From Hyphomicrobium facile (GTDB lineage: Bacteria; Pseudomonadota; Alphaproteobacteria; Rhizobiales; Hyphomicrobiaceae), in the NCBI RefSeq assembly GCF_900116175.1, contig NZ_FPCH01000003.1, positions 1 through 64,000 on the forward strand: 64,000 nucleotides of DNA, written 5' to 3'. Below, piece by piece: positions 31,533 to 48,758 of this stretch. Position numbers and translations under genes: made by a program. The notes under the pieces were generated by a model. The model saw only the letters and a list, made by a program, of their open reading frames with translations. It was not told where the DNA came from and made no database searches. Numbering within the stretch: the first letter of the stretch is position 1; every line of letters begins with the position of its first letter.

Positions 31533-32603
31533 TCAAGCAACGTCATCCCATTCGCCGGGCGTCTTTTGTCCCGCCCACAGATACGGTTGCTGGAGTCCAA
31601 TTCCGAATACGAGCGGAATAACGAGCGACCAGTTCACGCCCATGTAGGCGTACGTGAGAAGCTCCTCCATGCTTGAAAATACTGGCCCGATGAGTTTGGT
31701 CAGCAAGCTCGCGACGATTACGTCGATCACGAGATATGTCGCGCACGCGAGTATGCCGCCCCACGGCATCGGTATCTTCGAGAAGGGCCAGTTGTGTGTG
31801 ATGATCGGCATCGCGTAGTTGATCGATGTCGCCGTCATGAAGCAGAGCAGCCAGAAGCTGTCGTCCGTGAAGTGCCCCATGCTCCAAAACGGCGAAATCG
31901 GCGATTTATCAAAATCCCAGAGTCCGGCAGCCGCAGAAATCTGGAACGATAGACAGGCCGTCGCGAATAGAATTGCCATTATCACGACCGCACGTCCGGG
32001 CTGAGGCAGGCCGCGCGTGAGGAATGTCAGCGTACCCGTTCCCAGTCCGACAAGCAGGAAGGGAAACCACCATGCGGGAATCCACTTCACCGCGGAGTGC
32101 GTGATCAGGTAGGTAAGACCGGCGAAAAGCAGCAGATGAATGAGCGCCTGGCGGTGGGGCGGCAGCTTCGCGACGAGGAAATTTCCACCCGCAAAGCAGA
32201 AGAAGGCGAGAAGGAACCACGTCGTTCCGACGAGCGGGAAAATGCCGTCTGCGCCGGGCCCGATCAAAAAGATGAGCTTCGCACTCCACCATCCGAGAAC
32301 CCATGAGGCGATGACGAGTGCTGCGCCTCGGACCGTCTTGTCCTGGATGGAGTTGAACGGCCAAAAGTTGCAAACGACGAAGAAACAGGCCCACCAGGCA
32401 GAGAAAATCTGCCAGCTGACGTTATCAAGCCAGAACGACTTTGCGATATCATCTCCGCGCCACGGGCCGATGGGGTTTGCCGTGACCCAGAGGTTGACCA
32501 GATAGCATGAGACGATCGACAGACCGTAGATCCAGACGAAGCCGCGTACGGCCTCGCTCGGTCGATAAGGTGCAACGGCGGCCGACATTGTAGTAGCTGA
32601 CAC
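31533..32603 (-). CDS. Ten-helix membrane protein of unknown family
   Basis: A 356-residue, Trp-rich integral membrane protein with about ten hydrophobic segments, for example WQIFSAWWACFFVVCNFW, WFLLAFFCFAGGNFLV and WGGILACATYLVIDVIVASL. Polar or charged residues inside membrane regions (several His and Asp, as in TYLITHSAVKW, ATSINYAMPIITHNW) hint at a ligand or metal site, but I recognise no family. The GTG start has GGAGGAAA upstream. A DmoA-cluster type operator lies about 280 bp upstream, shared with the divergent EamA gene, so it may be a transporter or membrane enzyme of methyl-sulfur metabolism. Confidence 0.7.
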   Translation of the reverse strand: MSATTMSAAVAPYRPSEAVRGFVWIYGLSIVSCYLVNLWVTANPIGPWRGDDIAKSFWLDNVSWQIFSAWWACFFVVCNFWPFNSIQDKTVRGAALVIASWVLGWWSAKLIFLIGPGADGIFPLVGTTWFLLAFFCFAGGNFLVAKLPPHRQALIHLLLFAGLTYLITHSAVKWIPAWWFPFLLVGLGTGTLTFLTRGLPQPGRAVVIMAILFATACLSFQISAAAGLWDFDKSPISPFWSMGHFTDDSFWLLCFMTATSINYAMPIITHNWPFSKIPMPWGGILACATYLVIDVIVASLLTKLIGPVFSSMEELLTYAYMGVNWSLVIPLVFGIGLQQPYLWAGQKTPGEWDDVA

Positions 32604-32881
32604 GCATTTCCTCCTTTTTTGTTTCCTGCCGTTGGCAATGCCAACAACAAGCGGACTTCTTATTTGAGGGAGTGCAGCGAGCGAGACCGCTCACCTCATC
32701 GCTTGTGCCGATCGTCTTTAGGAAGAAGAGCGTTGCGAGCGATTGGCGTCGCGTGGACGAAGCCCACGACGAGGTTGCCAACTGATAGAGGACATCGCTT
32801 CGCGTTCACTCGCGACCGTCGGCACACGGCAATCGGTCTTTCATCGGGCTTCCCCTCGTCGATTACTATTGTCATTTTGTT

Positions 32882-32917
32882 TGTATCGACCGGTACATAC
32901 TGATACAGCTCCGTACA
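32882..32917. promoter_or_regulatory. Pair of TetR-type operator boxes, methyl-sulfur regulon
   Basis: TGTATCGACCGGTACA (32882-32897) is a good match to the ideal dyad TGTACCGATCGGTACA. A weaker match on the other strand, TGTACGGAGCTGTATC, lies at 32902-32917, exactly 20 bp further. The pair sits between the divergent membrane-protein and EamA genes. Confidence 0.75.
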
Positions 32918-32944
32918 GAAATCAAGCGATTTGAATTTGGCCGA

Positions 32945-33985
32945 GTGCCAGGTGGGATTTTGGGCAACGCATCACGACTTCGATGGGGGCTGCTTTATGC
33001 GTTCATCGCCTGCATGTTCTGGTCGTCGCTGTACGTCAGAACAGACTTCGTCGCGCCCTACGGCACGGCCGACTTGGCCATCGTTAGATTTTCGTTTTCA
33101 ACGTTGATCGCGATGCTCATCCTGCTCGCACGCGGGGGCTTGCGACGGATTTTCAACGAGCGAACGCGGGGCGAATGGCTTTTAGCATCGGCTCTCGGTT
33201 TTTTGGGATTTACCGGCTATTATTTTTTTCTCGCCACGGCGATCAAATATACGTCCGAGGTCATCACTGTTGCGATCATCGCGATGATTTCCGTCGTGAC
33301 GCTGCTTGTGAACAATGCGCTGTATCGCGAATTCAAATGGCATGTGGTGGCATGGCCAGCGCTTCTGGGGGGCGCGGGCGTCGCGACGATCGTCTGGGGC
33401 CAAGTTCAAGCGGGAGCCTTTTCATTCACCGATAAGGGAATGAAGGGACTCATCGGTCTGGCCGCGGCATTGGTCGCGCTCGCGATGTGGAGCGCTTATC
33501 AGGTGCTCAATAAGCGCGCCCTTATTCGCTTTTCCGCAGTATCCGTCGAAGATTGGACGTTACTGACGCTCATTGGCGGCGCGATCGCGTTGCCGCCGCT
33601 TCTCGCCATTCTTCCAGCGTCGCCGATGAGCGAGGAATTCACACTTTATTCGCAACCTCTAGGACCATCCACATTACCATTGCTGGGATGGGGATTGTTT
33701 CTGGCTATCGGCGCTTCGCTGCTTTCCCTGAGTTCTTGGAATCGGGCGCAGAAATATCTTCCGCCTACACTCAGCGGCCAATCCGTCGTGTTCTTGTTGC
33801 CGCTGGTCTTTGCACTCGGCTGGTACTATGGGCGCTTCTCGACCAACGCGTTCGCGATGCTGACGGGTATAGGACTTCTTTTCCTTTCGGTTGGCGCGAC
33901 GATCATTCTCCAGCACTCTCCGAAGTGGCTGCCAAAGAGTTTCCGCTCAAATGCGAGGCGGGCGTCAAACGCGGATAGCGTTTGA
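32945..33985 (+). CDS. EamA/DMT family transporter
   Basis: A 346-residue inner-membrane protein with ten hydrophobic segments in two repeated halves, the drug/metabolite transporter layout. Motifs include GLLYAFIACMFWSSLYV at the start and WGQVQAGAFSF after the first half. It probably exports a small metabolite; the substrate is unknown. The start is a GTG at 32945; a TTG at 32960 preceded by AGGTGGG is also possible. The operator pair ends only 27 bp upstream, so it is probably a regulon member. Confidence 0.82.
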   Translation: MPGGILGNASRLRWGLLYAFIACMFWSSLYVRTDFVAPYGTADLAIVRFSFSTLIAMLILLARGGLRRIFNERTRGEWLLASALGFLGFTGYYFFLATAIKYTSEVITVAIIAMISVVTLLVNNALYREFKWHVVAWPALLGGAGVATIVWGQVQAGAFSFTDKGMKGLIGLAAALVALAMWSAYQVLNKRALIRFSAVSVEDWTLLTLIGGAIALPPLLAILPASPMSEEFTLYSQPLGPSTLPLLGWGLFLAIGASLLSLSSWNRAQKYLPPTLSGQSVVFLLPLVFALGWYYGRFSTNAFAMLTGIGLLFLSVGATIILQHSPKWLPKSFRSNARRASNADSV

Positions 33986-34014
33986 CGCCGCATCATCGGG
34001 TGGGCACGAGGTGG

Positions 34015-35253
34015 CTATCTCAACCCGTGGCCGATCTTTACGGCCTCGGGCAGATGTCTCAGACGAAACATCGCTATCGTGCCGATCACGGGCCCGGGTA
34101 CAAGCACGAGGAAGGCCCATTGCCATCCGCCCAAATAGTCGGCGAGCATCGGCACGACACGGATTGCAATAACGGTCAGCGCGAAGCCTAGACCTAGCTG
34201 CAGTGCCAGCGCCGTACCCACGAACGATGACTCCCCGACCTCCGTTACGATCGCGGAGAACTGCGCGGAATCGCCGATCACAGTCACTCCCCATACCACC
34301 GAGATGAGCAGGAAAACCCAAAGCGGCGCATCGAATGAGAAGCCGATGAGCAGCGCGCAGAGTCCGGACAACGCCATCATGATCGATGTCGTTGCCGTGC
34401 GCCCGATTCGATCGGCCATGGCGCCACCGACAACGCACCCGATGATGCCCGATCCGATCACCGCGAACGTAATCAGGGAAGCGCTGGACGTGCTCAATCC
34501 TCGTTCCTGCAATGCCGCCTGGGCGAAGGCCAAGAACCATCCCCACATTGCGTACAGCTCCCACATGTGGCCGAAGTAGCCAATGTTGGCGAGCATCACC
34601 GGTTTGTCGCGCAGGACCCGTCCGATCTGGCGAGGGTCGAATGTCGCGCGCGCAAACGGGTTGGGTCCCTCGACGGCGTACCGCGCCATCAGCAGTGCGC
34701 CGCCGACCGTCATGATCGACGTCGCGCTGACGACCAATTTCCAATTCAAATCCGTCGTTATCGCGCGCAAGAGATGCGGAAAGGCCGAGCCAAGCGTCAA
34801 CGCCGCGATCACACAACCAAGGGCCAAGCCCCGCCCTCGGACAAACCAGGTCGAGATGAGTTTCAGGGCCGGCGGATAAACTCCCGCGAGCGCCATTCCC
34901 GTTATGAAGCGCAATGCAATCGCAACCTCGGCGTTCGGAGCGGCGAGCAGCGCGAGATTCGCCGCCGCAGCGAGCGCTGCAGAAGCCGACATCAGGGTGC
35001 GCGCGGAAACGACGTCGGGAAGATTGAAAAAGCTTGCGCCGAGCGCTCCAACGACGAATCCAATTTGCACGGCATTCGTCAGCCACGCAGCGGCACCGGC
35101 ATCAAGCGACCAGACCGCGCGAAGTTCGGACACGATCGCAGTCGCGGAAAACCATGTCGTCATCGAAAGCACGATTGCTAAGCTCAGAATCGCGAGCATT
35201 TTCCAGCGCGATTCGTCGAGCGCGCGCTGGCTCGAATGCGAAGTCACCGTCAT
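34015..35253 (-). CDS. Major facilitator superfamily transporter
   Basis: A 412-residue protein with twelve hydrophobic segments. The MFS loop motif appears as GGAMADRIGRTAT between helices 8 and 9 and the DAGAAAWLTNAVQIGFVVGALG segment covers helices 1-2. The ATG at 35253 with AGAGGGAAAC upstream is preferred over one 24 bp earlier. It starts 11 bp after the MaoC gene, so both are one operon. Substrate unknown; an organic acid or sulfonate is plausible from context only. Confidence 0.85.
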   Translation of the reverse strand: MTVTSHSSQRALDESRWKMLAILSLAIVLSMTTWFSATAIVSELRAVWSLDAGAAAWLTNAVQIGFVVGALGASFFNLPDVVSARTLMSASAALAAAANLALLAAPNAEVAIALRFITGMALAGVYPPALKLISTWFVRGRGLALGCVIAALTLGSAFPHLLRAITTDLNWKLVVSATSIMTVGGALLMARYAVEGPNPFARATFDPRQIGRVLRDKPVMLANIGYFGHMWELYAMWGWFLAFAQAALQERGLSTSSASLITFAVIGSGIIGCVVGGAMADRIGRTATTSIMMALSGLCALLIGFSFDAPLWVFLLISVVWGVTVIGDSAQFSAIVTEVGESSFVGTALALQLGLGFALTVIAIRVVPMLADYLGGWQWAFLVLVPGPVIGTIAMFRLRHLPEAVKIGHGLR

Positions 35254-35263
35254 GAGTTTCCCT

Positions 35264-35743
35264 CTACTCCACCGCAACCTGCTTGGCGGTCATATGTCTG
35301 CGCAACGGCGACACATAAACGACCGCCGAGCCTGAAAGGCATACGCTCCCGTCTTCGCCATAGATCGTCGTGATCAGCTCGCAGATGGGTTTGTCATCAC
35401 GCACGGATGTGACCTCGACCTCCGCCGTGATCATCTCATCCACGCCGACAGCGCGAACGAACCGCCAGTTCACGCCAAGAAAAACAGTGCCAGGCCCTGG
35501 AAGGTCTTCAGCGACGATCGCATTGAGAAGACCTGAGGTGACACCCCCTTGGACGATTACGCGACCGAAGGCAGATGCCTCCGCGAGTTTCTGGTCGTAG
35601 TGCAATGGATTGTAGTCACCCGTCATTTCAGAAAAACGCGTGATGTCCTCTTGCGAGGTCCGGCGCGAGCGTCGCGCCCGCGACCCGACGGTCGGTTTTC
35701 CGTTCAGCGTGTCTTCCCAAACACTCGTGGCGGATGTCCCCAT
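35264..35743 (-). CDS. MaoC-like hotdog dehydratase/hydratase
   Basis: A 159-residue single hotdog-domain protein. The hydratase motif is FSEMTGDYNPLHYDQKLAE, with the Asp and His of the enoyl-CoA hydratase 2 active site (D-x4-H), followed by VQGGVTSGLLNAI. It probably acts on an acyl-CoA or related thioester. Start ATG 35743 has AAGGAAC upstream. Linked to the MFS gene; no dmo-type operator was seen in front of this pair, so membership in the sulfur regulon is not supported. Confidence 0.85.
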   Translation of the reverse strand: MGTSATSVWEDTLNGKPTVGSRARRSRRTSQEDITRFSEMTGDYNPLHYDQKLAEASAFGRVIVQGGVTSGLLNAIVAEDLPGPGTVFLGVNWRFVRAVGVDEMITAEVEVTSVRDDKPICELITTIYGEDGSVCLSGSAVVYVSPLRRHMTAKQVAVE

Positions 35744-36311
35744 TGCGCTAGTTCCTTTTGGGCTTGTTTTTATTCTGCGCGACTGAACTTGCATGCGCAC
35801 CGCGCCCACTCGAGAGTTCGAGCGGCAGCACGGATTTCAACGAAACACAGGCTGTGGCGCCCGCAGTTCTGAGGATGCACGGCCAAACTCCGCGCTTGGC
35901 AAGCCGCCACAAGCGGCCGCACAACCGGTCTATGGAACCTGCGAGATTTCGCGAATGAATTTGGTCTCCAAAAATGATTTGGAAAACCCGAAGCGAAGAG
36001 CTCGATATTTGGGGCGTGGCCTGTCCGATATCGCAACTAGCCTGTATGCTGATTTTCTCGGATTTTTCTTTTTCGCACTCGCAAAAAAAATGCGATGCTG
36101 TCGCTAGGGCGACGGAGTGTGGTTGACTCAAAAGCAGCGTCATTTCGGGCGTCGCCAAGTTCCCAATTGTATGCTGTTATCGTAAAGTACGACGGTCATT
36201 TGGATTAAGCCGACGAACAGTTTTGGAGGCCTTCTTGTCACGCTCAGATTTGAAATCGCCGACCCGGGCGGGACGAAAGCGACAATCATCAGACCTTGAC
36301 CTTAGCACTAG
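35744..36311. other. Intergenic region, no gene seen
   Basis: About 570 bp between divergent genes. Short open frames on both strands lack ribosome binding sites and recognisable motifs. Lower GC than the neighbours from 36020 on. Confidence 0.5.
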
Positions 36312-36327
36312 TGTACCGACTAGTCCA
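36312..36327. promoter_or_regulatory. Operator box in front of the TetR regulator gene
   Basis: TGTACCGACTAGTCCA matches the left half of the ideal dyad TGTACCGATCGGTACA exactly and the right half partly. It lies 33 bp before the regulator start codon, which suggests autoregulation. Confidence 0.7.
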
Positions 36328-36360
36328 CACACACATTGGTCTGCGGATAGCGATAGAAAT

Positions 36361-36969
36361 ATGCGAAATGGAAAGCCGACCGTCGCCGGGGGTCAGCAAT
36401 ACGAGCGAATTCAGAAGATTGCGGCGGACTTGTTTGCGACGCGAGGCTATCGCGCCGTGGGTGTCGCAGAAATCGGGGAAGCGGTCGGATTAGGCAGGGG
36501 CGCGCTTTATTATCATATAAGCAGCAAGGAAGATTTGCTGTTCAACATCGCGGTTCGATATATCGAAGATCTGGTTGTTGCGGGTAGAGACTCGCTTGCC
36601 TCCGAGCCCGATCCAAGAAAGCGGATTTATATCCTTAGCCGCAATCTGATGCACACTATCTTCGCCAACCTGCCGGAAATGACAGTCTGCTTCCGTGAAG
36701 CCGATTGCCTCACCGGTCAACGGCATCGGATCGTATCCGAACTCCATCAAGCGTATCAGGACATCTGGACGACGACGTTCCGGGAGGGAGAGAAGAAAGG
36801 ACTTTTCCGTTCTCTGCCAACGGTTGCGATAAAGGGCATCCTAGGGATGTACTTCTACAGTTTCCTTTGGCTGAAGCCCTCAGGCCGAAAATCATCACGC
36901 GAGATCGCCGACGTGTTCGCAGACATGGCGTTGTCGATCGCAGAATCCAAAGGGCGGCAAGCTCCTTGA
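36361..36969 (+). CDS. TetR family regulator, probable controller of the methyl-sulfur regulon
   Basis: A 202-residue regulator. The helix-turn-helix spans RIQKIAADLFATRGYRAVGVAEIGEAVGLGRGALYYHISSKEDLL region (about residues 15-60). The C-terminal domain resembles the KstR/FadR-like TetR group (TVCFREADCLTGQ, WTTTFREGEKKGLF). The start at 36361 fits the family; the longer upstream frame would overlay the operator at 36312. The same dyad recurs in front of the dmoA, porin, msuE, soxC and EamA units, so this is the best candidate for a regulon-wide repressor. The ligand is unknown; DMS, DMSO2 or a CoA or flavin-linked metabolite are possibilities. Confidence 0.85.
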   Translation: MRNGKPTVAGGQQYERIQKIAADLFATRGYRAVGVAEIGEAVGLGRGALYYHISSKEDLLFNIAVRYIEDLVVAGRDSLASEPDPRKRIYILSRNLMHTIFANLPEMTVCFREADCLTGQRHRIVSELHQAYQDIWTTTFREGEKKGLFRSLPTVAIKGILGMYFYSFLWLKPSGRKSSREIADVFADMALSIAESKGRQAP

Positions 36970-37085: not shown

Positions 37086-37721
37086 TCAGCAGTCGTGCGC
37101 CATACGCAACCGCTTTGTTTCAAGGTAACGACGGTTGTGCGGGTTCGGATCGACGACCAGCGGCACGCGTTCGATGACAGAAATGCCGAGAGCCCGTAGC
37201 GCCTGCTGCTTGAGCGGGTTGTTCGACAACAATCGAACCGTATTCATGCCGAGCTCCAACAGTGCTCGGCCTGCCAATGTATAATCGCGAGCGTCGACTG
37301 GAGCGCCAATCTCGATATTGGCGTCGATCGTGTCGATCCCTTGATCTTGAAGCGCGTAGGCCTGCAGCTTCTTGAACAATCCAATACCGCGCCCTTCCTG
37401 GTAGGGCGCGTACGCAAGTGCTCCGAACGGCGCTGCACAAATGGCCCGCAAAGCCATCTGCAGTTGCTGGTGGCAATCACAGCGCAGCGAATGAAAAATA
37501 TCCCCCGTTACGCAACCCGAATGGATGCGCACCAGAGGGATGGTTGCTTCTGACGCTTCGGCGGTACGATGAACCAGAACGACGAGCTGTTCGGCGGCGT
37601 CGTCGCCTTGATACGCGTAAGCATCAAGGAGAACCTCCTCGCCCTCCAATTCTATTGGTAACACAGTGGCAACGACGCGTAGGACGCCCGGTTCGACGGC
37701 TTTTAAGGCGCTTATCCGCAT
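37086..37721 (-). CDS. ribA: GTP cyclohydrolase II
   Basis: Opens the imidazole ring of GTP in the first step of riboflavin synthesis. All three zinc cysteines are present in SGCVTGDIFHSLRCDCHQQL (Cys70, Cys81, Cys83), followed by the EGRGIGLFKKLQAYALQDQG catalytic block. 211 residues, a stand-alone enzyme. It complements the ribBA gene 4 kb away, whose C-terminal GTP cyclohydrolase domain lacks these cysteines. It is last in a run of minus-strand genes for sulfur oxidation and flavin synthesis. Confidence 0.93.
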   Translation of the reverse strand: MRISALKAVEPGVLRVVATVLPIELEGEEVLLDAYAYQGDDAAEQLVVLVHRTAEASEATIPLVRIHSGCVTGDIFHSLRCDCHQQLQMALRAICAAPFGALAYAPYQEGRGIGLFKKLQAYALQDQGIDTIDANIEIGAPVDARDYTLAGRALLELGMNTVRLLSNNPLKQQALRALGISVIERVPLVVDPNPHNRRYLETKRLRMAHDC

Positions 37722-37766: not shown

Positions 37767-38345
37767 TCACTTCGCCGGCGACGCCGACTGGTTGATCCGA
37801 TACATATCGAGCTCGGGGCCAGATCCGTCGAAGAAGCCTTTGGCGTTTGGCATGACGACTTTCCGAAGCGTCTTGGCGTCCAAGACCTGCTTGTCATCGA
37901 TGATCTTCCCGACTGACAGGATGTAGGCCGACAGCGCGTACACCTCGTCGGGCGTGAGGGAGCCCGGTTGGTCGAACGGCATGGTGCGCCAGATATAGTC
38001 GAACAGCGTACTGGCATGGGGCCAGTAACTCTCGACAGATTTGAGGGGCCTGTCCGTGGCCAAGCTTCCCCGTCCGCCTGCGAGCACGGGGCCGCCAGCT
38101 TCTTTTATCCCCTCGAGATGCTCACCATGACAATGAGCGCACCGTTGCGCATAGATTTCACGGCCAGCAGCGGCCGTGCCTTGTCCAGGGGGCAGAGTTG
38201 CGCCGTCAGGCTGAATGGCAAAGAACTTTGCCAGTTCCTCTGACGAGACCGGCGTGCCGACACTCGCGTCGGTATTGCCGGCGTGGGACAACGCGGGCCA
38301 CAAGCAGAAGAGTATTGCCGTGCAAAGGCCTCTAAACGTGGACAT
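37767..38345 (-). CDS. Class I c-type cytochrome, partner of the SoxC-like sulfite dehydrogenase
   Basis: A 192-residue periplasmic protein with a signal peptide (STFRGLCTAILFCLWPALSHA) and one haem-binding motif CAHCH near residue 80; the Met ligand is probably in TMPFDQPG. It accepts electrons from the molybdenum subunit and passes them to the respiratory chain, as SorB or SoxD-type cytochromes do. It overlaps the 3' end of the soxC gene by 14 bp, so translation is coupled. The length and single haem fit the small SoxD/SorB-like group; which name is right cannot be settled here. Confidence 0.85.
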   Translation of the reverse strand: MSTFRGLCTAILFCLWPALSHAGNTDASVGTPVSSEELAKFFAIQPDGATLPPGQGTAAAGREIYAQRCAHCHGEHLEGIKEAGGPVLAGGRGSLATDRPLKSVESYWPHASTLFDYIWRTMPFDQPGSLTPDEVYALSAYILSVGKIIDDKQVLDAKTLRKVVMPNAKGFFDGSGPELDMYRINQSASPAK

Positions 38346-39669
38346 TGGACACACTACCGTCTGAAGCGACGGCCCAGCTCTGAATGGCGTTGTAGTGGTA
38401 GACGGAGTTCACGCCTCGCACGCTGATAAGCTCCGAGCGCGTCGGCTGAACGTTGCCGGCTTCGTCGATACACCGGCTTTGTAAAATGGCCGGCTTGCCA
38501 TCCCAGTGCCAAGGGTAGCTGAAGCGTACCGTACTCATGGGCTCCGGCACATTGTCGAGCCTGGCCGGCGCCCACGTCTTGCCGCCGTCGAGTGACACGT
38601 CGACCGCATAAACGCGGCCGCGTCCAGACCATGCGAAACCCTTGATCAGATAATGACCGGGCTTCGGCAGCATCATTTCGCCGGACGGAAACGTGATGAC
38701 GGACTTTGCATCCATCTCGAGAGTGAACAGTTTCGCGCGCCCGTCCTTCAAGAGATCGGTATAGGCGGCCGTTTCCTCATGCGTCATGAACGGGCGGTCG
38801 CTCACTTGCAGGCGACGCAGCCACTTGATCTGCGTATTGCCTTCGAAGCCTGGCAATATGAGGCGGAGCGGGTAGCCCTGCTCGGGCCGAAGCGCTTCGC
38901 CGTTCTGTCCGTAAGCTATGAGCGCATCCGACATCAGCTTGCCGATCGGAATGCTGCGGGTCATCACCGCGGCGTCGGCGCCTTCGGCCAAGACCCAGGC
39001 CGCATTCTCCTGCAAGCCCACGTGACGAGCCAACGTCGCAAACGGAACGCCCGTCCACTCGGTCGTGCTCAATAATCCGTGCGTAACTTGGACGTTTTTT
39101 CCTGTCGGCTTCGACCACTCGTCCAACGTATTGCCGGAGCACTCGATAAAGCATCGCCGCGTAACGGACGGCAAACTCTTGATCTCGGCGATCGTGAATT
39201 TCTTCGCGATATCGACAAGACCGTGAACGTAGAGCTCGTGGCGCGCTGGATCTATGGTTGGAATGCCGCCGTGATGGCGCTCGAAGTGCAGCCCGGAGGG
39301 CGTAAGATTTCCGATCGTTGCGGCGAGCGGCGTATATGTCCACGAAGTGGCATCCAGCGGACGATCGGCTTTGACACGCACCTCGGTTTCGAATTGGGAG
39401 CGTGTGCCGTAGCCGTTATCTTCGTGCACACCGCGACCCATCTCTTTCGTAGGATCGTCGGGAACGTCGTAAAGGACCGCACCAGGAGGTGCCGTCTTCT
39501 TCTCGGCGAGCGCCGGCGCAGCTGCCAATGGCGCGGCAGCGGTCGCCGCGGCGGCGGAAAATATCAGCTTGCGCCGATCAAGCTCGAGATGCGGCTTCAT
39601 CCCGTCCTTGCAGGGACAATCGTCACCCGATGGACCTGCCGTAGCTTCGGTGTTTCGATTTAGCGACAC
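38332..39669 (-). CDS. soxC: Sulfite dehydrogenase molybdenum subunit, SoxC type
   Basis: Periplasmic molybdopterin enzyme that oxidises sulfite to sulfate. The N-terminus has a twin-arginine signal (DRRKLIFSAAAATAAAP, residues 31-47). The sulfite oxidase fold follows, with the Mo ligand cysteine at about 177 in CFIECSGNT, and the C-terminal dimerisation domain with VYAVDVSLDGGKTW. 445 residues, typical of SoxC. No soxAXYZB genes are nearby, so it acts as a stand-alone sulfite dehydrogenase with the following cytochrome. An operator box lies 40 bp upstream of the start. Confidence 0.92.
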   Translation of the reverse strand: MSLNRNTEATAGPSGDDCPCKDGMKPHLELDRRKLIFSAAAATAAAPLAAAPALAEKKTAPPGAVLYDVPDDPTKEMGRGVHEDNGYGTRSQFETEVRVKADRPLDATSWTYTPLAATIGNLTPSGLHFERHHGGIPTIDPARHELYVHGLVDIAKKFTIAEIKSLPSVTRRCFIECSGNTLDEWSKPTGKNVQVTHGLLSTTEWTGVPFATLARHVGLQENAAWVLAEGADAAVMTRSIPIGKLMSDALIAYGQNGEALRPEQGYPLRLILPGFEGNTQIKWLRRLQVSDRPFMTHEETAAYTDLLKDGRAKLFTLEMDAKSVITFPSGEMMLPKPGHYLIKGFAWSGRGRVYAVDVSLDGGKTWAPARLDNVPEPMSTVRFSYPWHWDGKPAILQSRCIDEAGNVQPTRSELISVRGVNSVYHYNAIQSWAVASDGSVSNVHV

Positions 39670-39708
39670 CCCCGCCTCCTGAAATATACGACCTGGGCGC
39701 TCAATGTA

Positions 39709-39724
39709 TGTATCAGTCGGTACA
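39709..39724. promoter_or_regulatory. Operator box upstream of soxC
   Basis: TGTATCAGTCGGTACA matches the right half of the ideal dyad TGTACCGATCGGTACA and most of the left half. It lies 40 bp before the soxC start, in the 170-bp gap after ribF, so soxC-cytochrome-ribA may have its own regulated promoter. Confidence 0.75.
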
Positions 39725-40993: not shown

Positions 40994-41533
40994 TCAAATA
41001 TGCGAAATCATCCCGTAGCGGGCGTCGTGATAGACCAGCGGCGCGAGGGTCTCGACATCCGTTCCGATGACCTGACCGACAAATACAGTGTGCGTGCCGA
41101 TCGGAATTCTCTGTTGAATTTCACATTCGAGCTGGGCTGCGGCGCCCTTGATGAGGGGCACGCCTCTTTCGCTCAAGCGATGCTCGACGGACGCGAATTG
41201 ATTTTCGCCCTTCGTGGCGAAATGTTCAGCGATGTTCTTTTGGCCATCAGCCAGGATATTGACTGCAAATGCGCCTTTTCTATCGATATGCGGATGAGTC
41301 CGCGCCGTCTTGTTTACGGCGATGAGGATGGTCGGCGGCTCGGCGCAAACACTGCAGACCGCGGTCGCGGTAAATCCGTAGAGCGTGCCGTTCTCTTCCG
41401 TTGTGATCACGGTCACGCAACCGGCGAGCTGGCGCATGACTGTTCGAAAGGCATTGGCATCGACAGTCGAGGGCTTCCCCCCCAACGCAGCACCGATGCT
41501 GTTGATCGCGCTCCGAATAGACCCCATCTGCAT
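40994..41533 (-). CDS. Flavin reductase, HpaC/FRP split-barrel family; candidate DmoB
   Basis: Supplies reduced FMN to a two-component monooxygenase using NAD(P)H. Family motifs: FRTVMRQLAGCVTVIT, GFTATAVCSVCAEPPTILIAVN and FAVNILADGQ. 179 residues, about 19 kDa. From memory, the small subunit DmoB reported with purified DMS monooxygenase of Hyphomicrobium was about 19 kDa, so the size fits. GAGGAGAG precedes the ATG. It sits between ribBA and ribF on the same strand. It could also serve SfnG. Confidence 0.88.
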   Translation of the reverse strand: MQMGSIRSAINSIGAALGGKPSTVDANAFRTVMRQLAGCVTVITTEENGTLYGFTATAVCSVCAEPPTILIAVNKTARTHPHIDRKGAFAVNILADGQKNIAEHFATKGENQFASVEHRLSERGVPLIKGAAAQLECEIQQRIPIGTHTVFVGQVIGTDVETLAPLVYHDARYGMISHI

Positions 41534-41598: not shown

Positions 41599-42708
41599 TC
41601 ACAACTGCTCTTTCCCGACAATCGTCAGCCCATAACCTTCGATGCCGACGAGTGTCTGATCGCGGCTCGACAGCAGGATCATGTCTTTGATCCCAAGATC
41701 GACGAGGATTTGCGCACCGACGCCGTACTCGCGAAGTTGCGGGCCCGGCCGGGAATGGGGGCTGCTGTTGCGAATGCGCTCGGAAAGCGCGCCGCGGCGG
41801 CCATCGTTCAAAAGAACGATGACGCCCCGTCCCCGCCGCATGATCTTGAACATGGCGCTATTCAAGCCTTCTCCCTCGCGAGAGAGGATCACGTCGCTCA
41901 CAAGATCCGACCTGTGCAGGCAAACTGGGATTGCGCCAGGCTTCGTGATATTTCCCTTGATCAACACCGCGTGCTCGGAGCCGTCGACTGTGTCCTGGTA
42001 AATGGCCAACTGCCATTCACCGAAGCTCGGGTGATGAATCGCAGACGTCGCAACACGCGTGACAAGCCGCTCATGGCGAAGCCGGTAGGCGATCAGATCA
42101 GCAATCGTTCCGAGCTTGATGCGATGCGCACTCGCGAATTTCAGCAGATCCGGCAGGCGCGCCATCGTGCCGTCATCGTTCATGATTTCGCAGATGACGC
42201 CTGATGGATTGAGGCCCGCGATCCTCGCCACATCAACAGCAGCCTCGGTATGCCCCGCGCGAACGAGCGTACCGCCTTCCCGTGAAATCAACGGGAAAAT
42301 ATGGCCCGGAGTGACGATATCGTTCGACGTGCATTCCGGATTGATTGCGACTGCGATGGTTCGCGCCCGGTCGGCGGCGGAAATTCCTGTCGTCACTCCG
42401 GTCTTGGCTTCGATCGAAAGAGTGAAGGCGGTCTGCAACCCTGTTTGCACCGATTGCGCCATGGCACTGAGTTTCAGGTGCGCAACACGCTGAGGCGTTA
42501 GTGCGAGACAGATCAGCCCACGTGCGTGCCGGGCCATGAAGTTTATGGCATCGGCGGTCGCGAATTGCGCTGGAATGACTATATCGCCTTCGTTCTCGCG
42601 ACCTTCGTCGTCGACGAGAATGAAGCAGCGCCCAGCCCTCGCTTCTTCAATGATGTCTTCCGCAGGGCTTATCTCTTCAGCGTCGTGGTTCGTGAACATG
42701 AAGTTCAT
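41599..42708 (-). CDS. ribBA: RibBA-like protein: active DHBP synthase, degenerate GTP cyclohydrolase II domain
   Basis: The N-terminal half makes 3,4-dihydroxy-2-butanone 4-phosphate for riboflavin; its metal and substrate motifs are intact ([11 protein letters not shown], DFxxN-type [37 protein letters not shown]). The C-terminal half is homologous to GTP cyclohydrolase II but the zinc cysteines are missing: where an active enzyme has H-S-x-C...LRCDC this one reads [18 protein letters not shown], and the QEGRGIGL block is NDGRRGALS. So it is probably monofunctional, with the separate ribA supplying the other activity. Confidence 0.9.
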
Positions 42709-42825: not shown

Positions 42826-43941
42826 TTATGCGATCGCTTGCCTTTTCATCGGGGCGGCGCGCTCGAGTTCGCGGACGAGCGGAATGACCCGCTCACCGAA
42901 AAAGCGCGTCTCCTCATGGAAGTGCAAGAACCCGCAAAGAACCATGTCCACGCCGATTTTGCGGAGTTCGTATATGCGGAGCGCGATCTGCTCGGGCGTT
43001 CCGACCAAGTTCGTGTTGAAGCCATCGTTGTATTGGATCAGATCGCGGCTCGTGGACTTCACCCACATCCCCTTGCCTTCCTTGCTCGCCTGCCCGGCCT
43101 CCTTGACCGCTATGCGGAAATTCTCGACGGCCTCCGTATCGGCGCCGCGCACGATACGCTCGAGTTCTGCCTGAGCTTCCGCTTCCGTCTCGCGAGCAAT
43201 CACGAAGGCATTGGCAACGAATTTGACTGTCCGGCCTTTTGCCGTTGCAAGCTTCGTGACGTAATTGATCTGCTCTTTGAAGCCCTCGGGTGTATTGCCA
43301 TTCATGCAATACCAATCCGAAACCGACGCCGCCATTCTTTGGGCCGCGAGCGAATTTCCGCCTTGGAAAATCTCCGGCGTCGGACGACCGGGAATGACGA
43401 GCGGCTTCGGCTTCAGTGTGTAGCCGTCGATCTTCCAATACTTGCCGGCGTAACTGAAATCGTCCTCGGTCCACGCCCCGCGAAGAATCTCGATGAATTC
43501 CTGCGAACGGACGTAACGCTCATCGTGCTCGACCCACGGCACGCCAAGAGCATCGTATTCGGCTCGACACCAACCGCTGACAACGTTGATCGCCCAGCGG
43601 CCATTGAAGATTTGATCGGCGGTAGCGCCATGCTTGGCGACGACACCGGGATGAAACATTCCCGGAAGTATGCCGGTAATGATGTTGAGCGTTTCGGTAT
43701 GAGCGAGCAGCGCTGTCGAAAATATCAGCGCGTCATGTTGATATTCAGCGCCGTAGCTTCCCATGAAGCGGATCTGCGTAAGGGCATACTCGAAGCCAAC
43801 TTCTTCCGCGATCTTGGCGAGTCTAATGTTGTATTCGAGACCCCAGTCGGTGCGCTGCGGGACCTTGCTGACAACAAGGCCACCGCTGGCACTGGAAACC
43901 CAATGCGCAAACTTCATAGGACTAGCGTTCTTGGCGCCCAT
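42826..43941 (-). CDS. sfnG: FMNH2-dependent dimethyl sulfone monooxygenase
   Basis: Luciferase-like monooxygenase that cleaves dimethyl sulfone to methanesulfinate and formaldehyde. The full-length protein (371 residues) reads as SfnG: FAHWVSSASGGLVVSK, FMGSYGAEYQHD, GILPGMFHPGVVAKHGA, WAINVVSGWCRAEYDALG and the late ETRFFGERVIPLVREL. The group is close to SsuD alkanesulfonate monooxygenase, so a related C1 or C2 sulfone or sulfonate substrate remains possible. It follows msuE by about 90 bp on the same strand, the partner it needs for reduced FMN. Confidence 0.9.
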   Translation of the reverse strand: MGAKNASPMKFAHWVSSASGGLVVSKVPQRTDWGLEYNIRLAKIAEEVGFEYALTQIRFMGSYGAEYQHDALIFSTALLAHTETLNIITGILPGMFHPGVVAKHGATADQIFNGRWAINVVSGWCRAEYDALGVPWVEHDERYVRSQEFIEILRGAWTEDDFSYAGKYWKIDGYTLKPKPLVIPGRPTPEIFQGGNSLAAQRMAASVSDWYCMNGNTPEGFKEQINYVTKLATAKGRTVKFVANAFVIARETEAEAQAELERIVRGADTEAVENFRIAVKEAGQASKEGKGMWVKSTSRDLIQYNDGFNTNLVGTPEQIALRIYELRKIGVDMVLCGFLHFHEETRFFGERVIPLVRELERAAPMKRQAIA

Positions 43942-44028
43942 GACTGCTGCCTTTCGATGCCTTAGCGGGAGCGTTCCCGATTTTTACAGAGCATACGGTT
44001 CAACGAAGGAGGGAATTGCTGGGGCAGG

Positions 44029-44586
44029 CTATTCGACCAACTGACGAACGGGCACACGTGAAGGCACAAGCAGGCCGACGGCTTCATCTGCCGCTCTTTC
44101 GATGCGCTCTCTAAGGGCGGGGCTTGAAACCGCGCCACTTGCGAAATCATCGCTGAGGCCGTAGAGACCGGTCGTCACGGTCTGGATTGCAAAAAAGCCC
44201 ATGAGGGGCCGCATCTGATGCTCGATCACTAGGGCGTGCATTGGTGTACCGCCAGTTGCACACAGGATCGCCTTGCGGTTACGCATGGCGTCCCGATCCA
44301 CAAGATCAAAGAAGTGCTTGAGCAATCCCGTGTAGGCTGCTCGATACACCGGCGTCCCGATGATCAGCAGGTCAGCACGCTCAACGAGCTGGAGGAGTTC
44401 TTCGCCTTTGACGGAGACGTCAGGGCGCGTCAGTCCGCACATGACCTCATGGCCAACGTCGGATAGGGCTATTTTATAGCTGTCCGTTGGCAGCGCCGTC
44501 GCGACGGCATCAGCCACGGCGTCAATCAAGATGCCAGTCTTAGATTGGCGCGTCGGACTGCCGTTGATCCCCACAATGGTCAACAT
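44029..44586 (-). CDS. msuE: NAD(P)H-dependent FMN reductase, MsuE/SsuE type
   Basis: A 185-residue flavodoxin-fold reductase that provides FMNH2 to sulfonate or sulfone monooxygenases. Motifs: VGINGSPTRQSKTG (FMN phosphate loop), IIGTPVYRAAYTGLLKHFFDL and ILCATGGTPMHAL. Start ATG 44586 has AGGGAAAC upstream and gives the normal MLTIVGINGS N-terminus. It is the first gene of the minus-strand run through sfnG, ribBA, the second flavin reductase and ribF, and the operator box at 44640 lies 53 bp before its start. Confidence 0.9.
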   Translation of the reverse strand: MLTIVGINGSPTRQSKTGILIDAVADAVATALPTDSYKIALSDVGHEVMCGLTRPDVSVKGEELLQLVERADLLIIGTPVYRAAYTGLLKHFFDLVDRDAMRNRKAILCATGGTPMHALVIEHQMRPLMGFFAIQTVTTGLYGLSDDFASGAVSSPALRERIERAADEAVGLLVPSRVPVRQLVE

Positions 44587-44639
44587 CAGGCGTTTCCCTA
44601 GATATTTTTTTTTAGGGTCCATTGACCGGACCACCTGTT

Positions 44640-44655
44640 TGTATCGATCGGTCCA
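44640..44655. promoter_or_regulatory. Operator box upstream of msuE-sfnG
   Basis: TGTATCGATCGGTCCA differs from the ideal dyad TGTACCGATCGGTACA at two positions. A weaker partial match (TTGACCGGACCA) lies just downstream toward the gene. Confidence 0.75.
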
Positions 44656-44865
44656 TCATTATGTAAAAATTCAAAACACGCAAGTGGGATCAGCGATGAG
44701 CTGCAAGTTCGTCCGCATACTTTGCTCGCTTTAAAATTAACGCGCCTCAAGTCCCGAGCTCAAATCCATCAACGCGCATGAAAGAAGGGCATCAATCTCT
44801 GCGTGGAAATTTTTTTCGGGCAACCCGAGCGGCGAATGCGGTCACGAATTAAGTGCCCGCGGACA

Positions 44866-44898: not shown

Positions 44899-44925
44899 AA
44901 GTGGAGGAAGCAGGACACGAAGAAG

Positions 44926-46227
44926 CTAGAAATTTATCATGCTGCCAAACACGATCGTGGACATGTCTTTCGTGTTGACACCGGGAACATCCACTTCGTG
45001 GTTTCTATAGCGAAGCCAAACCGACATAGCGGCGGCATCTATTTCCTGAACTGCGCCGAAGCCCCAGAAGCGTGTCGATGACCCCTTGATGACCTGGGAT
45101 GTATCGTCGGAAGCGTCGCCGGGCGAACCGCCATCACTGACGATCATCGCGCTGTTGTTGGCTCCGAGGTATTCGCCATAGGGAATCGTCGCCCCGAGCG
45201 GATTGAGCTTCAGACGGACACCACTCTTCATATACCAAGTATCTGTCGCCGGATTATCGACCAGCCCGCCCTGCTCAGTCAGATGCCCCCAGCCCGCTGT
45301 ACCAAACCAGCCCGAGGGAAGATGCTGAACGTAGAGGCCAGCCTGCGTGTACTTCAACTTTCCGTCGGGCGGCGCGCCGAGGTTCGAGTCCGTTGTCTCA
45401 GCATATGTCAAAGCGCCCGCAATCTTGAAATTGCCGAGGGTATTTGCGTACCAACCCGCAAGCGCCCAATCGTCATCTTCACCCCACGACGCGGTGGCAG
45501 AGAAACCTTTATACGCGGGCGTATCGTACCTGACCGCATTCCGTGGAAGGCCATCGCAATCGCCCGGACCGCCGCCGTATCCCCGGCACGAAGATGCGTT
45601 ACCCCAGATCATCGATTGACCCGGAGCAAAGTTGCCGCGAACGTTGAAGCCAAACACGTCATAGGCGACCCAATAAGCCGCCGCCAGCGTTCCCGAGCTA
45701 TCGAGCGATACGATCGCGTTGTCGTCAGCCGGTGAAACCTTGCCGACGCTGAACTTGCCGAGCTGCTCGCTCTTCAGGAACCAGTATGAATAGAGCACCT
45801 GCACGCTGTTCTTAGTGCCGGTCAACGCAGCAGGACCTACAGGCGTGTTCTGGTTTGTCGTGTAAACGTCGCTATCGATAGCTTCGAGATGCAGTACGTA
45901 GCCGGCCGACCAATCCTTGTTGATCTTAGCCGTTCCCGTGAAATTCACGTTGCTCGCGAATGCGGTTCCAAGCCCGGAGACGTACGTGTTGGATTCAACG
46001 CCGTCGTCCCAGTAAACGACTTGCTCAGCAACCCAGCCTGACACCGTCAGCGAAACTTTTCTGTTGCCTTTAACAGCCGCGGACGCCTCGAGCTCGGCAA
46101 TGCGCTCTTCGAGATCGGCACAGCAATTGCCGCCAAGATCTGCAGCCGACGCCCCCGAAACACCAATGAGACCCAAAAAAGCCGGCGCGAAAAGAGCCGC
46201 TTTTCGTGTCTTCTTCTGAATTTTCAT
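44926..46227 (-). CDS. Outer-membrane porin, alphaproteobacterial porin_2 type
   Basis: A 433-residue protein with a signal peptide (KTRKAALFAPAFLGLIGVSGASA), a short coiled region with two adjacent cysteines (GNCCADLEERIAELEASAA) and a 16-strand-like barrel. The conserved start of the barrel VSLTVSGWVAEQVVYWDDG and the final FGSMINF with terminal Phe match the porin family of Hyphomicrobiales. Two operator boxes lie 42-86 bp upstream, and dmoA is divergent, so this porin is probably induced for uptake of methylated sulfur compounds or anions. Confidence 0.9.
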   Translation of the reverse strand: MKIQKKTRKAALFAPAFLGLIGVSGASAADLGGNCCADLEERIAELEASAAVKGNRKVSLTVSGWVAEQVVYWDDGVESNTYVSGLGTAFASNVNFTGTAKINKDWSAGYVLHLEAIDSDVYTTNQNTPVGPAALTGTKNSVQVLYSYWFLKSEQLGKFSVGKVSPADDNAIVSLDSSGTLAAAYWVAYDVFGFNVRGNFAPGQSMIWGNASSCRGYGGGPGDCDGLPRNAVRYDTPAYKGFSATASWGEDDDWALAGWYANTLGNFKIAGALTYAETTDSNLGAPPDGKLKYTQAGLYVQHLPSGWFGTAGWGHLTEQGGLVDNPATDTWYMKSGVRLKLNPLGATIPYGEYLGANNSAMIVSDGGSPGDASDDTSQVIKGSSTRFWGFGAVQEIDAAAMSVWLRYRNHEVDVPGVNTKDMSTIVFGSMINF

Positions 46228-46268
46228 CACTTCCCCCATTCGAATCGACAGCGCAGAACCTAAACAGA

Positions 46269-46313
46269 CCGACCGAATGGTACAACTAAATTGAAAACCG
46301 ACCGATAGGTACA
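46269..46313. promoter_or_regulatory. Two operator boxes in front of the porin gene
   Basis: CCGACCGAATGGTACA (46269-46284) and CCGACCGATAGGTACA (46298-46313), 29 bp apart, share the right half GGTACA and the CCGA core with the other boxes of the regulon. Confidence 0.78.
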
Positions 46314-46520
46314 GTTTTGAACGGGTGTGTGGGAGACGGCGCTCGACCCATTCGCTTGATCGGGGAATCCTGATCATTGTCAGCCCATTACGGCGGCGCG
46401 GCGGGCAAAGATTGCGCCTTCATCACGCATCGGAATTTTTTAGCCGCGCTGAGACAATGAGATCGGCAATTGATTGGAATAACGAGTTGCGCTTGCGTTT
46501 CCCCGCAAAATCCGATTATG

Positions 46521-46559
46521 TGGACCGGTCGGTACACTCCCAAGTGACCGATAGGTACG
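46521..46559. promoter_or_regulatory. Two operator boxes between porin and dmoA
   Basis: TGGACCGGTCGGTACA (46521-46536) and GTGACCGATAGGTACG (46544-46559), 23 bp apart. They lie about 300 bp before dmoA. The remaining 46560-46852 holds no gene and must contain the dmoA leader. Confidence 0.78.
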
Positions 46560-46852
46560 TAACGAACAATTGGTATCGGGGGCTTCGTTGGTTTGCTTTT
46601 TGGAACGCGCGGTCAAGGTAACTCGCGGCTTCAAAAAACTTACGAAGCAACAGGAAAGCCTGCGCCCAGGTTTCTCAGGAAGGTTCTGATTGATCAGCGA
46701 TGTCGAGGCTCACGAATTGCATTCGCACCGCAATTCACGGCCGGGACCCTATCGGAGAGCGGGAAAGATAAACCTGAAAAATGTCCGCTTTAAAACCGGC
46801 GAGCCCGACGAGAAGTGATTGTAACCGTGAAAAATACGAACGAGGAAACGCA

Positions 46853-48295
46853 ATGAAACCGAGGATCATCCTCAACGCTTTCGATATGACGTGCGTTAGC
46901 CACCAATCGGCGGGCACGTGGCGTCACCCATCCAGTCAAGCTTCGAAATACAATGATCTTGATTACTGGACGAACATGGCGCGGGAGCTTGAACGAGGAT
47001 GCTTCGACACTCTGTTTATCGCTGACGTCGTCGGTGTCTATGACGTCTATCGCAACTCGGCGGAAATGGCCCTCAAGGATGCCGCTCAGGTTCCTGTCAA
47101 CGACCCGTTCGCTGCGATCTCGGCAATGGCGGCGGTTACCAGCCACGTCGGCTTCGGCGTTACTGCAGCCGTGACGTTCGAACCGCCGTACCTTCTCGCA
47201 CGCAGGCTTTCGACCTTGGATCATCTGACCAAGGGCCGCATCGCTTGGAACGTGGTGTCTTCTTATTTGAACAGCGCCGCCCTCAATATCGGTATGGATA
47301 AGCAAATCGCTCACGACGAGCGCTACGACATCGCCGAAGAATACCTCGAGGTGATGTACAAGCTCTGGGAAGGCTCGTGGGAAGACGGCGCCGTTCAGCG
47401 CAACAAGGAAACGGGAGTCTTTACGGATGGCAGCAAGGTCCATCCGATTCAGCACCAAGGAAAATACTTCAAGGTCCCCGGCTTCCACTTGTGCGAACCG
47501 TCTCCGCAGCGCACTCCGGTGATTTTCCAGGCTGGCGCATCGGGCCGCGGCCGCCAATTCGCGTCCAAGCATGCCGAGGGCATGTTCATCCTGACGACGA
47601 ACGTCCAGCAGGCGCGAAAGATGACGGACGACATCCGCAATCAAACCGAAGCACAGGGCCGTTCTCGCGACTCAGTGAAGATCTTCATGCTGTTGACCGT
47701 CATCACCGGTCCGACAGACGAAGCTGCTCAGCGGAAGTACGAGGAATATCTTTCGTACGCGAGCCCGGAGGGCATGCTCGCGCTCTTTGGCGGCTGGACG
47801 GGCATGGACTTCTCCAAGCTTGATCCGGACGAGCCACTCAAGGCTATGGACAACGACAGCCTTCGCACGACACTCGAGTCGCTCACGAGCGGCAGCGACA
47901 AGGCGTGGACGGTTCGGGACGTCATCAAGAACCGCTGCATCGGCGGCCTCGGACCTGTGCTCGTTGGTGGACCGCAAAAGGTTGCGGACGAACTGGAGCG
48001 TTGGGTCGACGAAGGCGGAGTCGATGGCTTCAACCTCGCCTATGCGGTGACGCCCGGAACGACGACCGACTTCATCGACTTTGTTGTGCCCGAACTGCGC
48101 AAGCGCGGCCGCGTGCAAACGTCGTACAAGGAAGGCACGATGCGCGAAAAGCTCATCGGCACGAAGGATGGCAACGTCGAGAGCACGCATCCGGCTGCTC
48201 AGTACCGGACTGCTTATGTTGGCAAAGAGAGCGTTGCCAGCAAAACGATCGCGTCAAAGTTCTCGGACGTCACGAAGGTCCCGGAAACGGTCTAA
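46853..48295 (+). CDS. dmoA: Dimethyl sulfide monooxygenase large subunit
   Basis: FMNH2-dependent luciferase-like monooxygenase of the NtaA/SnaA/DszA group that oxidises dimethyl sulfide to methanethiol and formaldehyde. The N-terminus MKPRIILNAFDMTCVSHQSA, then FIADVVGVYDVY and RIAWNVVSSYLNSAALNIG, follow the pattern I know for DmoA of Hyphomicrobium. 480 residues, about 53 kDa, as reported for that subunit. ATG 46853 with GAGGAAACG upstream is preferred over a longer start. Divergent from the porin gene across four operator boxes. A relative acting on a longer thioether cannot be excluded. Confidence 0.88.
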   Translation: MKPRIILNAFDMTCVSHQSAGTWRHPSSQASKYNDLDYWTNMARELERGCFDTLFIADVVGVYDVYRNSAEMALKDAAQVPVNDPFAAISAMAAVTSHVGFGVTAAVTFEPPYLLARRLSTLDHLTKGRIAWNVVSSYLNSAALNIGMDKQIAHDERYDIAEEYLEVMYKLWEGSWEDGAVQRNKETGVFTDGSKVHPIQHQGKYFKVPGFHLCEPSPQRTPVIFQAGASGRGRQFASKHAEGMFILTTNVQQARKMTDDIRNQTEAQGRSRDSVKIFMLLTVITGPTDEAAQRKYEEYLSYASPEGMLALFGGWTGMDFSKLDPDEPLKAMDNDSLRTTLESLTSGSDKAWTVRDVIKNRCIGGLGPVLVGGPQKVADELERWVDEGGVDGFNLAYAVTPGTTTDFIDFVVPELRKRGRVQTSYKEGTMREKLIGTKDGNVESTHPAAQYRTAYVGKESVASKTIASKFSDVTKVPETV

Positions 48296-48324
48296 GTCTA
48301 GCGCTTCAACACTTCTAAATCAGC

Positions 48325-48350
48325 GAGGCGGAACCCAGCGGTTCCGCCTC
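48325..48350 (+). terminator. Strong hairpin between dmoA and the ABM gene
   Basis: GAGGCGGAACC-CAGC-GGTTCCGCCTC is a perfect 11-bp stem 30 bp after the dmoA stop. No T-run follows (GTATTG), so it may protect the dmoA message or attenuate rather than fully terminate. Confidence 0.65.
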
Positions 48351-48455
48351 GTATTGCATGACGATCAGCGAACGCCGCTGACGAAGCAACGCGCCACGAC
48401 TGGCGTATCCGCCCTCGCGGCTCGAGCGCCCAGTCGCAACAGGAGGAAAGACCCA

Positions 48456-48758
48456 ATGGCCAAGCTTGCACTCTACGTTCGTCTCGAAGCAAAGCCCGGA
48501 AAAGAGACTGCTCTTCAGCAGTTTTTGGAGAGTGCGCTTCCGCTCGCCGTCAACGAGCCGGACACGCCGGTCTGGTTTGCACTGCGTTTCGGTCCAAGCA
48601 CATTTGGAATATTCGACGCGTTTGAGACGGAAGAAGGCCGCCAAGCTCACCTCAACGGTCCGATTGCTGCCGCGCTCATGTCCAAAGTTGACGAGCTCCT
48701 CGCGGTCGCACCAAAAATCGAGCAGGTGGATGTTCTCGCGGCCAAACTCTCAGGCTGA
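48456..48758 (+). CDS. Small ABM-domain (antibiotic biosynthesis monooxygenase) protein
   Basis: A 100-residue ferredoxin-like protein beginning MAKLALYVRLEAKPGKETALQQFL, a typical ABM domain (dimeric alpha+beta barrel). The mid part PVWFALRFGPSTFGIFDAF fits the family. AGGAGGAAAG lies before the ATG. It is 160 bp downstream of dmoA, separated only by a hairpin, and is probably co-transcribed. ABM proteins include monooxygenases and stress proteins; a role on a reactive intermediate such as methanethiol or formaldehyde is speculation. Confidence 0.82.
   Translation: MAKLALYVRLEAKPGKETALQQFLESALPLAVNEPDTPVWFALRFGPSTFGIFDAFETEEGRQAHLNGPIAAALMSKVDELLAVAPKIEQVDVLAAKLSG

Follow-up and report, generated by a model that had tools for sequence, protein, structure and literature searches.

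A dimethyl sulfide monooxygenase cluster with flavin-synthesis genes and a predicted shared operator in Hyphomicrobium facile

Gene content of the dmoA-sfnG locus

The 64,000-nt stretch of the Hyphomicrobium facile contig NZ_FPCH01000003.1 analysed here (hereafter, the window; feature coordinates are window positions) encompasses a gene cluster in which two monooxygenases that depend on reduced flavin mononucleotide (FMN; reduced form, FMNH2), DmoA and SfnG, are combined with flavin reductases and with genes of flavin synthesis. The explanation that best accounts for the locus as a whole, and to which we assign a probability of about 0.78, is that this is a dimethyl sulfide (DMS) monooxygenase cluster of the Hyphomicrobium sulfonivorans type that carries its own, co-induced flavin-synthesis genes. 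Free reduced FMN is easily lost, and how two-component flavin monooxygenases are fed during growth is of practical interest, which extends to biofilters and enzyme production. The cluster couples the oxidation of one-carbon sulfur compounds to its own flavin-synthesis genes, and the predicted operators, together with a series of RibF proteins that runs from bifunctional to kinase-only, make the supply question testable, H. sulfonivorans S1 and H. zavarzinii being the named strains in which to address it.

The DmoA gene (46853..48295, plus strand; start moved from 46781 to fit residue 1 of the crystallised DmoA, PDB 6AK1) encodes a protein that matches 6AK1 with 926 bits, compared with 500 bits for the next PDB relative, an alkane monooxygenase, and matches the profile TIGR03860 with 552 bits. 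The DmoA orthologues are 83–97% identical (the 97% value is that of a truncated gene), whereas the family paralogues share 49–54%. Judged by these similarities, the window protein groups with the characterised DmoA and not with the NtaA, LadA or DszA types, as proposed in the original prediction, which had been made from the DNA alone; the candidate assignment to an NtaA-type enzyme with another function was rejected on the difference between 926 and 500 bits. The second monooxygenase named there, the FMNH2-dependent dimethylsulfone monooxygenase SfnG (42826..43941, minus strand), likewise held up, with 546.5 bits against a curated TIGR04021 cut-off of 382.95 and 464 bits to PDB 8t0u.

Two flavin reductases accompany SfnG on the minus strand: an MsuE-type FMN reductase, the first gene of the SfnG-Rib operon (44029..44634; 184.9 bits, below its own TIGR03566 cut-off of 212.5), and a reductase of the HpaC/RutF type (40994..41533; 137.8 bits to Pfam Flavin_Reduct, under every NCBIfam cut-off). 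Three flavin-synthesis proteins are encoded on the same strand, namely RibBX (41599..42708), in which 3,4-dihydroxy-2-butanone 4-phosphate synthase (RibB) is joined to a GTP-cyclohydrolase-like half without the cysteine motif; RibF, a riboflavin kinase/flavin adenine dinucleotide (FAD) synthetase with the motifs of both halves (39843..40913); and RibA, a GTP cyclohydrolase II whose cysteine motif is intact (37086..37721; profile matches and motif check). Between RibF and RibA lie genes for a SoxC-type sulfite dehydrogenase (38332..39669, minus strand; 527.7 bits against a TIGR04555 cut-off of 420) and, adjoining it, a cytochrome c that is likely its partner (37767..38354, minus strand; profile match). 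The minus-strand run MsuE, SfnG, RibBX, reductase, RibF, SoxC, cytochrome c and RibA is a probable operon. Profile matches recovered all the genes originally named at this place, but DmoA to RibA span about 9 kb, not the 6 kb claimed.

Going by orthology, DmoA would cleave DMS and SfnG would cleave dimethylsulfone, both on FMNH2 from the two flavin reductases, and SoxC with the cytochrome would oxidise sulfite; we infer the sulfur route through the cluster on this basis. PMC9259527 gives methanethiol and formaldehyde as the products of DmoA, at odds with a legend in PMC13352529, where DmoA/B makes dimethyl sulfoxide; the former version is followed here. PMC13352529 also describes DmoA and DmoB as the products of neighbouring genes. 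A search of nine genomes for the SBP56-type methanethiol oxidase gave full-length matches in three, including the H. facile genome (C2:314875), weaker matches in three, and no match in the remaining three (G043, G047 and G058), H. sulfonivorans among them. Elsewhere in the H. facile genome, C2:310816-316248 encodes an NtaA/DmoA-type monooxygenase (33% identical to DmoA) about 3 kb from the full-length SBP56-type enzyme. A second island, about 104 kb away from the cluster (C3:152701-163943; L007, L003 and L002), consists of luciferase-fold monooxygenases and MsuE-like reductases and includes an SfnG-like protein (55%).

Upstream of MsuE is a porin gene (44926..46377, minus strand; PF13609), from which dmoA is divergently oriented. 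Adjoining DmoA here, as in H. sulfonivorans and D-2, is a reading frame with a small MAKLALYV... protein (48081..48758, plus strand), which we take to be antibiotic-biosynthesis-monooxygenase-like. The other side of the cluster comprises genes for a TetR-family regulator (36361..36969, plus strand; PF00440 and PF17932; the start was moved from 36223 by inference), a MaoC-like protein (35264..35809, minus strand), a major facilitator superfamily (MFS) transporter (34015..35277, minus strand) and an EamA-family transporter (32945..33985, plus strand; PF00892), followed by an orphan integral membrane protein, MEM356 (31533..32603, minus strand).

Conservation of the cluster and its known relatives

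Thirteen genes, those for DmoA, the porin, MsuE, SfnG, RibBX, the second reductase, RibF, SoxC, the cytochrome, RibA, TetR, the MFS transporter and MEM356, are common to all eight Hyphomicrobiaceae loci, in a count where the SZAS-16 membrane protein, cut by the locus end, is seen as a partial match and the H. zavarzinii RibF is kinase-only. MaoC is present in seven of these loci and EamA in three. Because the same 13 genes recur in 8/8 loci, the cluster is not a chance association, and the expected conservation of flavin-synthesis genes beside the monooxygenases was borne out in all eight, the same genomes that hold an extra RibF. The genomes compared share ancestry, however, which tells against reading the recurrence as independent support, and we therefore give no probability for the genome association.

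DmoA matches of at least 83% identity were found in 9 of the 103 family genomes. In one near relative, G063, dmoA is truncated, beginning near codon 132 with two matching stretches in different frames; the genes of the cluster side are absent, and those downstream of dmoA are still in order (remnant L055:17278-18423). A near relative can apparently lose the whole cluster, as in G063. An apparent break of the RGIG5714 dmoA by two TGA codons was rejected, the stops being codons 7 and 11 of the aligned stretch, ahead of the start that matches 6AK1.

The gene set and order (MsuE-SfnG-RibBX-reductase-RibF, SoxC-CytC-RibA, TetR, porin, DmoA) are those of the H. sulfonivorans-type cluster except for the place of DmoA: in H. 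sulfonivorans and D-2, dmoA is inside the operon, between ribF and soxC, whereas in the window it is divergent. H. sulfonivorans S1 provides one of the eight SfnG loci in named genomes, and the DmoA of its cluster aligns to 6AK1 with two differing residues over 476, which identifies this locus as that of the characterised enzyme. The S1 dmoA locus has the same genes as the window, with flavin reductases and riboflavin genes nearby; apart from the position of DmoA, it differs in the altered FAD-synthetase motifs of its RibF, where the window RibF looks bifunctional, and in added copies of RibE and RibH. Boden et al. 2011 reportedly found flavin reductases, homologues of sulfur-metabolism proteins and enzymes of riboflavin synthesis encoded together with the DmoA gene. 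The suggestion that a locus joining monooxygenase and flavin supply was new thus gives way, as the same cluster lies at the characterised dmoA of H. sulfonivorans: the cluster is already known as a locus, and what is new is the predicted shared operator and the change in the RibF paralogue. A literature search, whose reach did not extend to the gene map of Boden et al. 2011, found no earlier description of the operator or the RibF change. The part of PMC9259527 that lists flavin reductases includes two from Hyphomicrobium, credited to Boden et al. 2011.

Related gene sets occur beyond the family. Of 397 genomes sampled from the order, 7 have cluster-type RibBX (E <= 1e-125), five of them being family cluster genomes; of the other two, L109 has the wider cluster and L110 part of it at a contig end. 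In four further loci (L011, L013, L016 and L109), genes for RibBX, a flavin reductase and a RibA-like protein come after SfnG, and L109 and L016 also have DmoA (80 and 82%). None of these four loci has a RibF match, and the lack of RibF in Methyloligella-type loci that do have RibBX and RibA is a point against the explanation preferred here. In the Beijerinckiaceae metagenome-assembled genome L011, a luciferase-fold monooxygenase, an FMN reductase and RibBX form a unit that occurs twice in succession (L011:9693-16361), and the recruitment of RibBX to luciferase-fold enzymes may be wider.

The sfnG-msuCDE sulfur-scavenging system of Pseudomonas and Acinetobacter, like the window, combines SfnG with an MsuE-type FMN reductase, and the word riboflavin is absent from the main text, at least, of the paper that describes it (PMC13352529). 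A luciferase-family search of the window cluster found no third gene besides SfnG and DmoA, and hence the cluster has no MsuD-like gene. The regulator of the sfnG-msuCDE pathway is SfnR, unlike the TetR of the window. The lux-rib operon of Photobacterium works alike, in that an FMNH2-dependent luciferase-fold enzyme shares one operon with riboflavin-synthesis genes, but its enzymes and its set of rib genes are different, and it is not known to contain ribF.

Flavin-synthesis genes and the cluster RibF paralogue

The GTP cyclohydrolase II cysteine motif occurs in 15/15 separate RibA proteins and in 0/20 RibBX proteins, cluster and housekeeping copies alike (one has it partially). The window RibBX, lacking this zinc-binding motif, is not a bifunctional RibBA by this measure, so that of the originally proposed ribBA the RibB half stands and the cyclohydrolase half falls. 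With the motif in RibA and none in RibBX, the two together represent the two entry reactions of the pathway, and RibF the exit. The cluster RibA and RibB would open both arms of riboflavin synthesis and RibF would make FMN at the end, the middle steps presumably being performed by housekeeping enzymes: the only RibH and RibE matches of the H. facile genome are on another contig (C4). No RibD was recognised among the scanned cluster genes, no genome-wide RibD search having been made. By its gene content, the flavin supply of the window cluster is partial, three enzymes and not six, which scales down the nearly complete FMN/FAD supply first envisaged. No match to the FMN riboswitch (RF00050) was found in the window at the gathering score, and 0/8 whole genomes have one, compared with 7/14 control genomes; FMN-riboswitch control, or escape from it, is ruled out as an explanation by its absence from the eight genomes.

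RibH is present in one copy in seven of nine genomes and in two copies in H. sulfonivorans and D-2, where the second RibH lies in the cluster beside a second RibE (L105:1854-3001 and L106:1601-2736). At the DNA level, the cluster RibE is 100% (H. sulfonivorans) or 99.4% (D-2) identical to the housekeeping RibE of the same genome, and the cluster copies of the two species are 93% identical to each other; the corresponding values for RibH are 97.8% and 92.6% within genomes and 90.2% between species. The pattern suggests gene conversion or separate recent duplication, clear for RibE only.

Of the 103 family genomes, 8 encode a second RibF, and these coincide exactly with the genomes whose dmoA cluster is intact; G063 has one RibF. 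(Two RibF matches were obtained in 11 genomes, but those in G009, G020 and G096, which lie side by side or on different small contigs and read as pieces of a single gene, are not counted; the four genomes with no RibF match are each <90% complete.) In a tree of 39 rows, from which L078, L081 and L091 were left out as duplicates of included rows, a branch with 100/99 support separates all eight cluster copies from the remaining sequences, which indicates that the paralogue is old and did not arise by local duplication. The exact positions of c_Hzav and c_RGIG, both on long branches, are unsure.

The rib genes might instead serve general flavin demand, merely travelling with the cluster or backing up the housekeeping genes and being useful regardless of DMS. 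In H. sulfonivorans and D-2, each with three GTP-cyclohydrolase matches of which two are RibBX, no stand-alone RibA was found besides the cluster RibA, which is thus not a mere extra copy; this favours the alternative over a dedicated supply. However, four genomes in the part of the cluster set searched for housekeeping RibA and RibBX (H. facile, SZAS-16, RGIG5714 and H. zavarzinii) have housekeeping RibA, RibBX and RibF besides the cluster copies, the extra RibF tracks the dmoA cluster exactly in the 103 genomes, and operator-like sites are shared (see below), all of which make general demand an unlikely explanation.

Under a motif test for bifunctional RibF (GNFDGxHxGH, SS[ST]xxR, PTAN), the window protein, with GNFDGVHRGH, TSTAVR (one conservative change) and PTAN, is classed as bifunctional. 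The riboflavin-kinase half is present in 8/8 cluster copies, whereas the FAD-synthetase motifs are altered in four of the eight, G050 (TSELIR), RGIG5714 (TSSAVH), and H. sulfonivorans and D-2 (SSFDGFHRGH, TAANIR), and the H. zavarzinii cluster RibF has no FAD-synthetase half; the motifs of the housekeeping RibF are intact in each of the nine genomes listed. The FAD-synthetase half is also more diverged than the kinase half, by a mean identity gap of 22.7 points in 21 cluster pairs against 9.3 in 36 housekeeping pairs. That a separate paralogue has had this half changed or lost in several lineages suggests that FMN, and not FAD, is what the cluster needs.

Several observations pull the other way. 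The FAD-synthetase motifs are kept in the window copy, G067 and SZAS-16; the kinase half of H. zavarzinii has ATAN in place of PTAN; and housekeeping pairs of H. sulfonivorans or D-2 with other genomes also have gaps of 8–21 points. The ratio of nonsynonymous to synonymous substitution rates (dN/dS) in the FAD-synthetase half is 0.03 for H. sulfonivorans/D-2; the motif-altered half is thus under strong purifying selection there, is not simply decaying and may have another role. The FAD-synthetase half could, alternatively, diverge simply because the housekeeping RibF covers FAD synthesis, with no special FMN demand, an account with which the intact housekeeping motifs and the complete loss of the half in one lineage agree. 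Plain redundancy does not predict the strong constraint in two close pairs, H. sulfonivorans/D-2 and G067/SZAS-16 (dN/dS 0.06), nor does it fit well with a kinase half in all eight copies, and we regard this account as possible but doubtful. Simple decay is unsupported in those two pairs. For the window and G050, dN/dS is 0.21 in the FAD-synthetase half and 0.07 in the kinase half, with synonymous divergence saturated.

A palindromic site at the cluster promoters

A block 5' of tetR is conserved in the alignment of 8/8 loci and, in the window, has two matches at <=3 mismatches compared with 0.01 expected. A palindromic 20-bp matrix places five operator-like sites in the window: 5' of the TetR gene (36312..36331), 29 bp before its revised ATG; between porin and DmoA (46517..46536); between MEM356 and EamA (32882..32901); 5' of SoxC-CytC-RibA (39705..39724); and 5' of MsuE-SfnG-RibBX-reductase-RibF (44640..44659), the last one weak on its own. 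With a matrix built from ten sites in the TetR and DmoA promoters of other genomes, and 60 random 64-kb sequences as the null, the TetR, DmoA, MEM356 (third) and SoxC sites take ranks 1-4 with scores of 19.2–27.7, above the random maximum of 16.5; a matrix from six TetR sites alone puts the same four at ranks 1-4. The MsuE site, expected 0.26 times per 64 kb, is identical over its 20 letters among the window, G050, H. sulfonivorans and D-2; the H. zavarzinii site is identical or nearly so.

A degenerate 17-base pattern written from the five window sites was scanned in whole genomes with one mismatch allowed; backwards-pattern controls gave 0 or 1 match per strand. All five matches in the H. 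facile genome are inside the cluster, those in the other seven cluster genomes are mostly at cluster places, and G063, where the cluster is lost, has none. The Methyloligella-type loci L109 and L013/L110 also have the site, ahead of MsuE and of the MFS gene; among the sites listed for L011, none scores above 12.

The cluster TetR would, we propose, bind the palindrome at the five promoters, whereby the monooxygenases, reductases and flavin-synthesis genes would be induced together; with such sites in front of dmoA as well as of both operons that carry rib genes, these genes are predicted to be co-regulated. Alternatively, the palindromes might be targets of a regulator that is not the adjacent TetR, since they are tied to it by position and co-occurrence only. 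We consider this improbable, as the strongest site of each locus precedes tetR itself (8/8 loci) and the cluster-less G063 has no match.

Part of the operator evidence does not favour TetR-mediated co-induction. The matrix test is blind for SoxC and MEM356 and only partly so for TetR and DmoA, because the alignment in which the block was first noticed included the window; the MsuE site, at rank 6 with a score of 12.0, lies within the random range and falls outside the top ten of the TetR-only matrix; and the palindromic-matrix listing has no SoxC site in H. sulfonivorans or D-2. Recovery of the window sites by the 17-base pattern is by construction, so that the informative results are its absence elsewhere and its matches in other genomes. 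In four of these, some matches fall outside the cluster, without mismatch in G043:C8 and G047:C6 (the latter also on the other strand with one mismatch) and with one mismatch at G050:C1:1304872, in G061:C2 and in G061:C4.

In a further reading, DMS-using Hyphomicrobiaceae might carry a regulated, FMN-specific cofactor line: a single TetR-type switch would turn on the two monooxygenases, their reductases and the enzymes at which FMN synthesis begins and ends, and the RibF paralogue would be on its way to becoming a riboflavin kinase that stops at FMN. This proposal is tentative, its chances in our estimate falling somewhat short of even.

MEM356, which matched no Pfam family, is 79–85% identical in six of the seven other aligned loci and 60% in the seventh. 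An AlphaFold model from eight sequences was unusable (mean predicted local distance difference test score, pLDDT, of 48). With the same operator-like site in front, MEM356 may serve the DMS cluster as a transporter or sensor. Outside the cluster, the window also contains a transfer-messenger RNA gene of the permuted alphaproteobacterial type (10767-11149).

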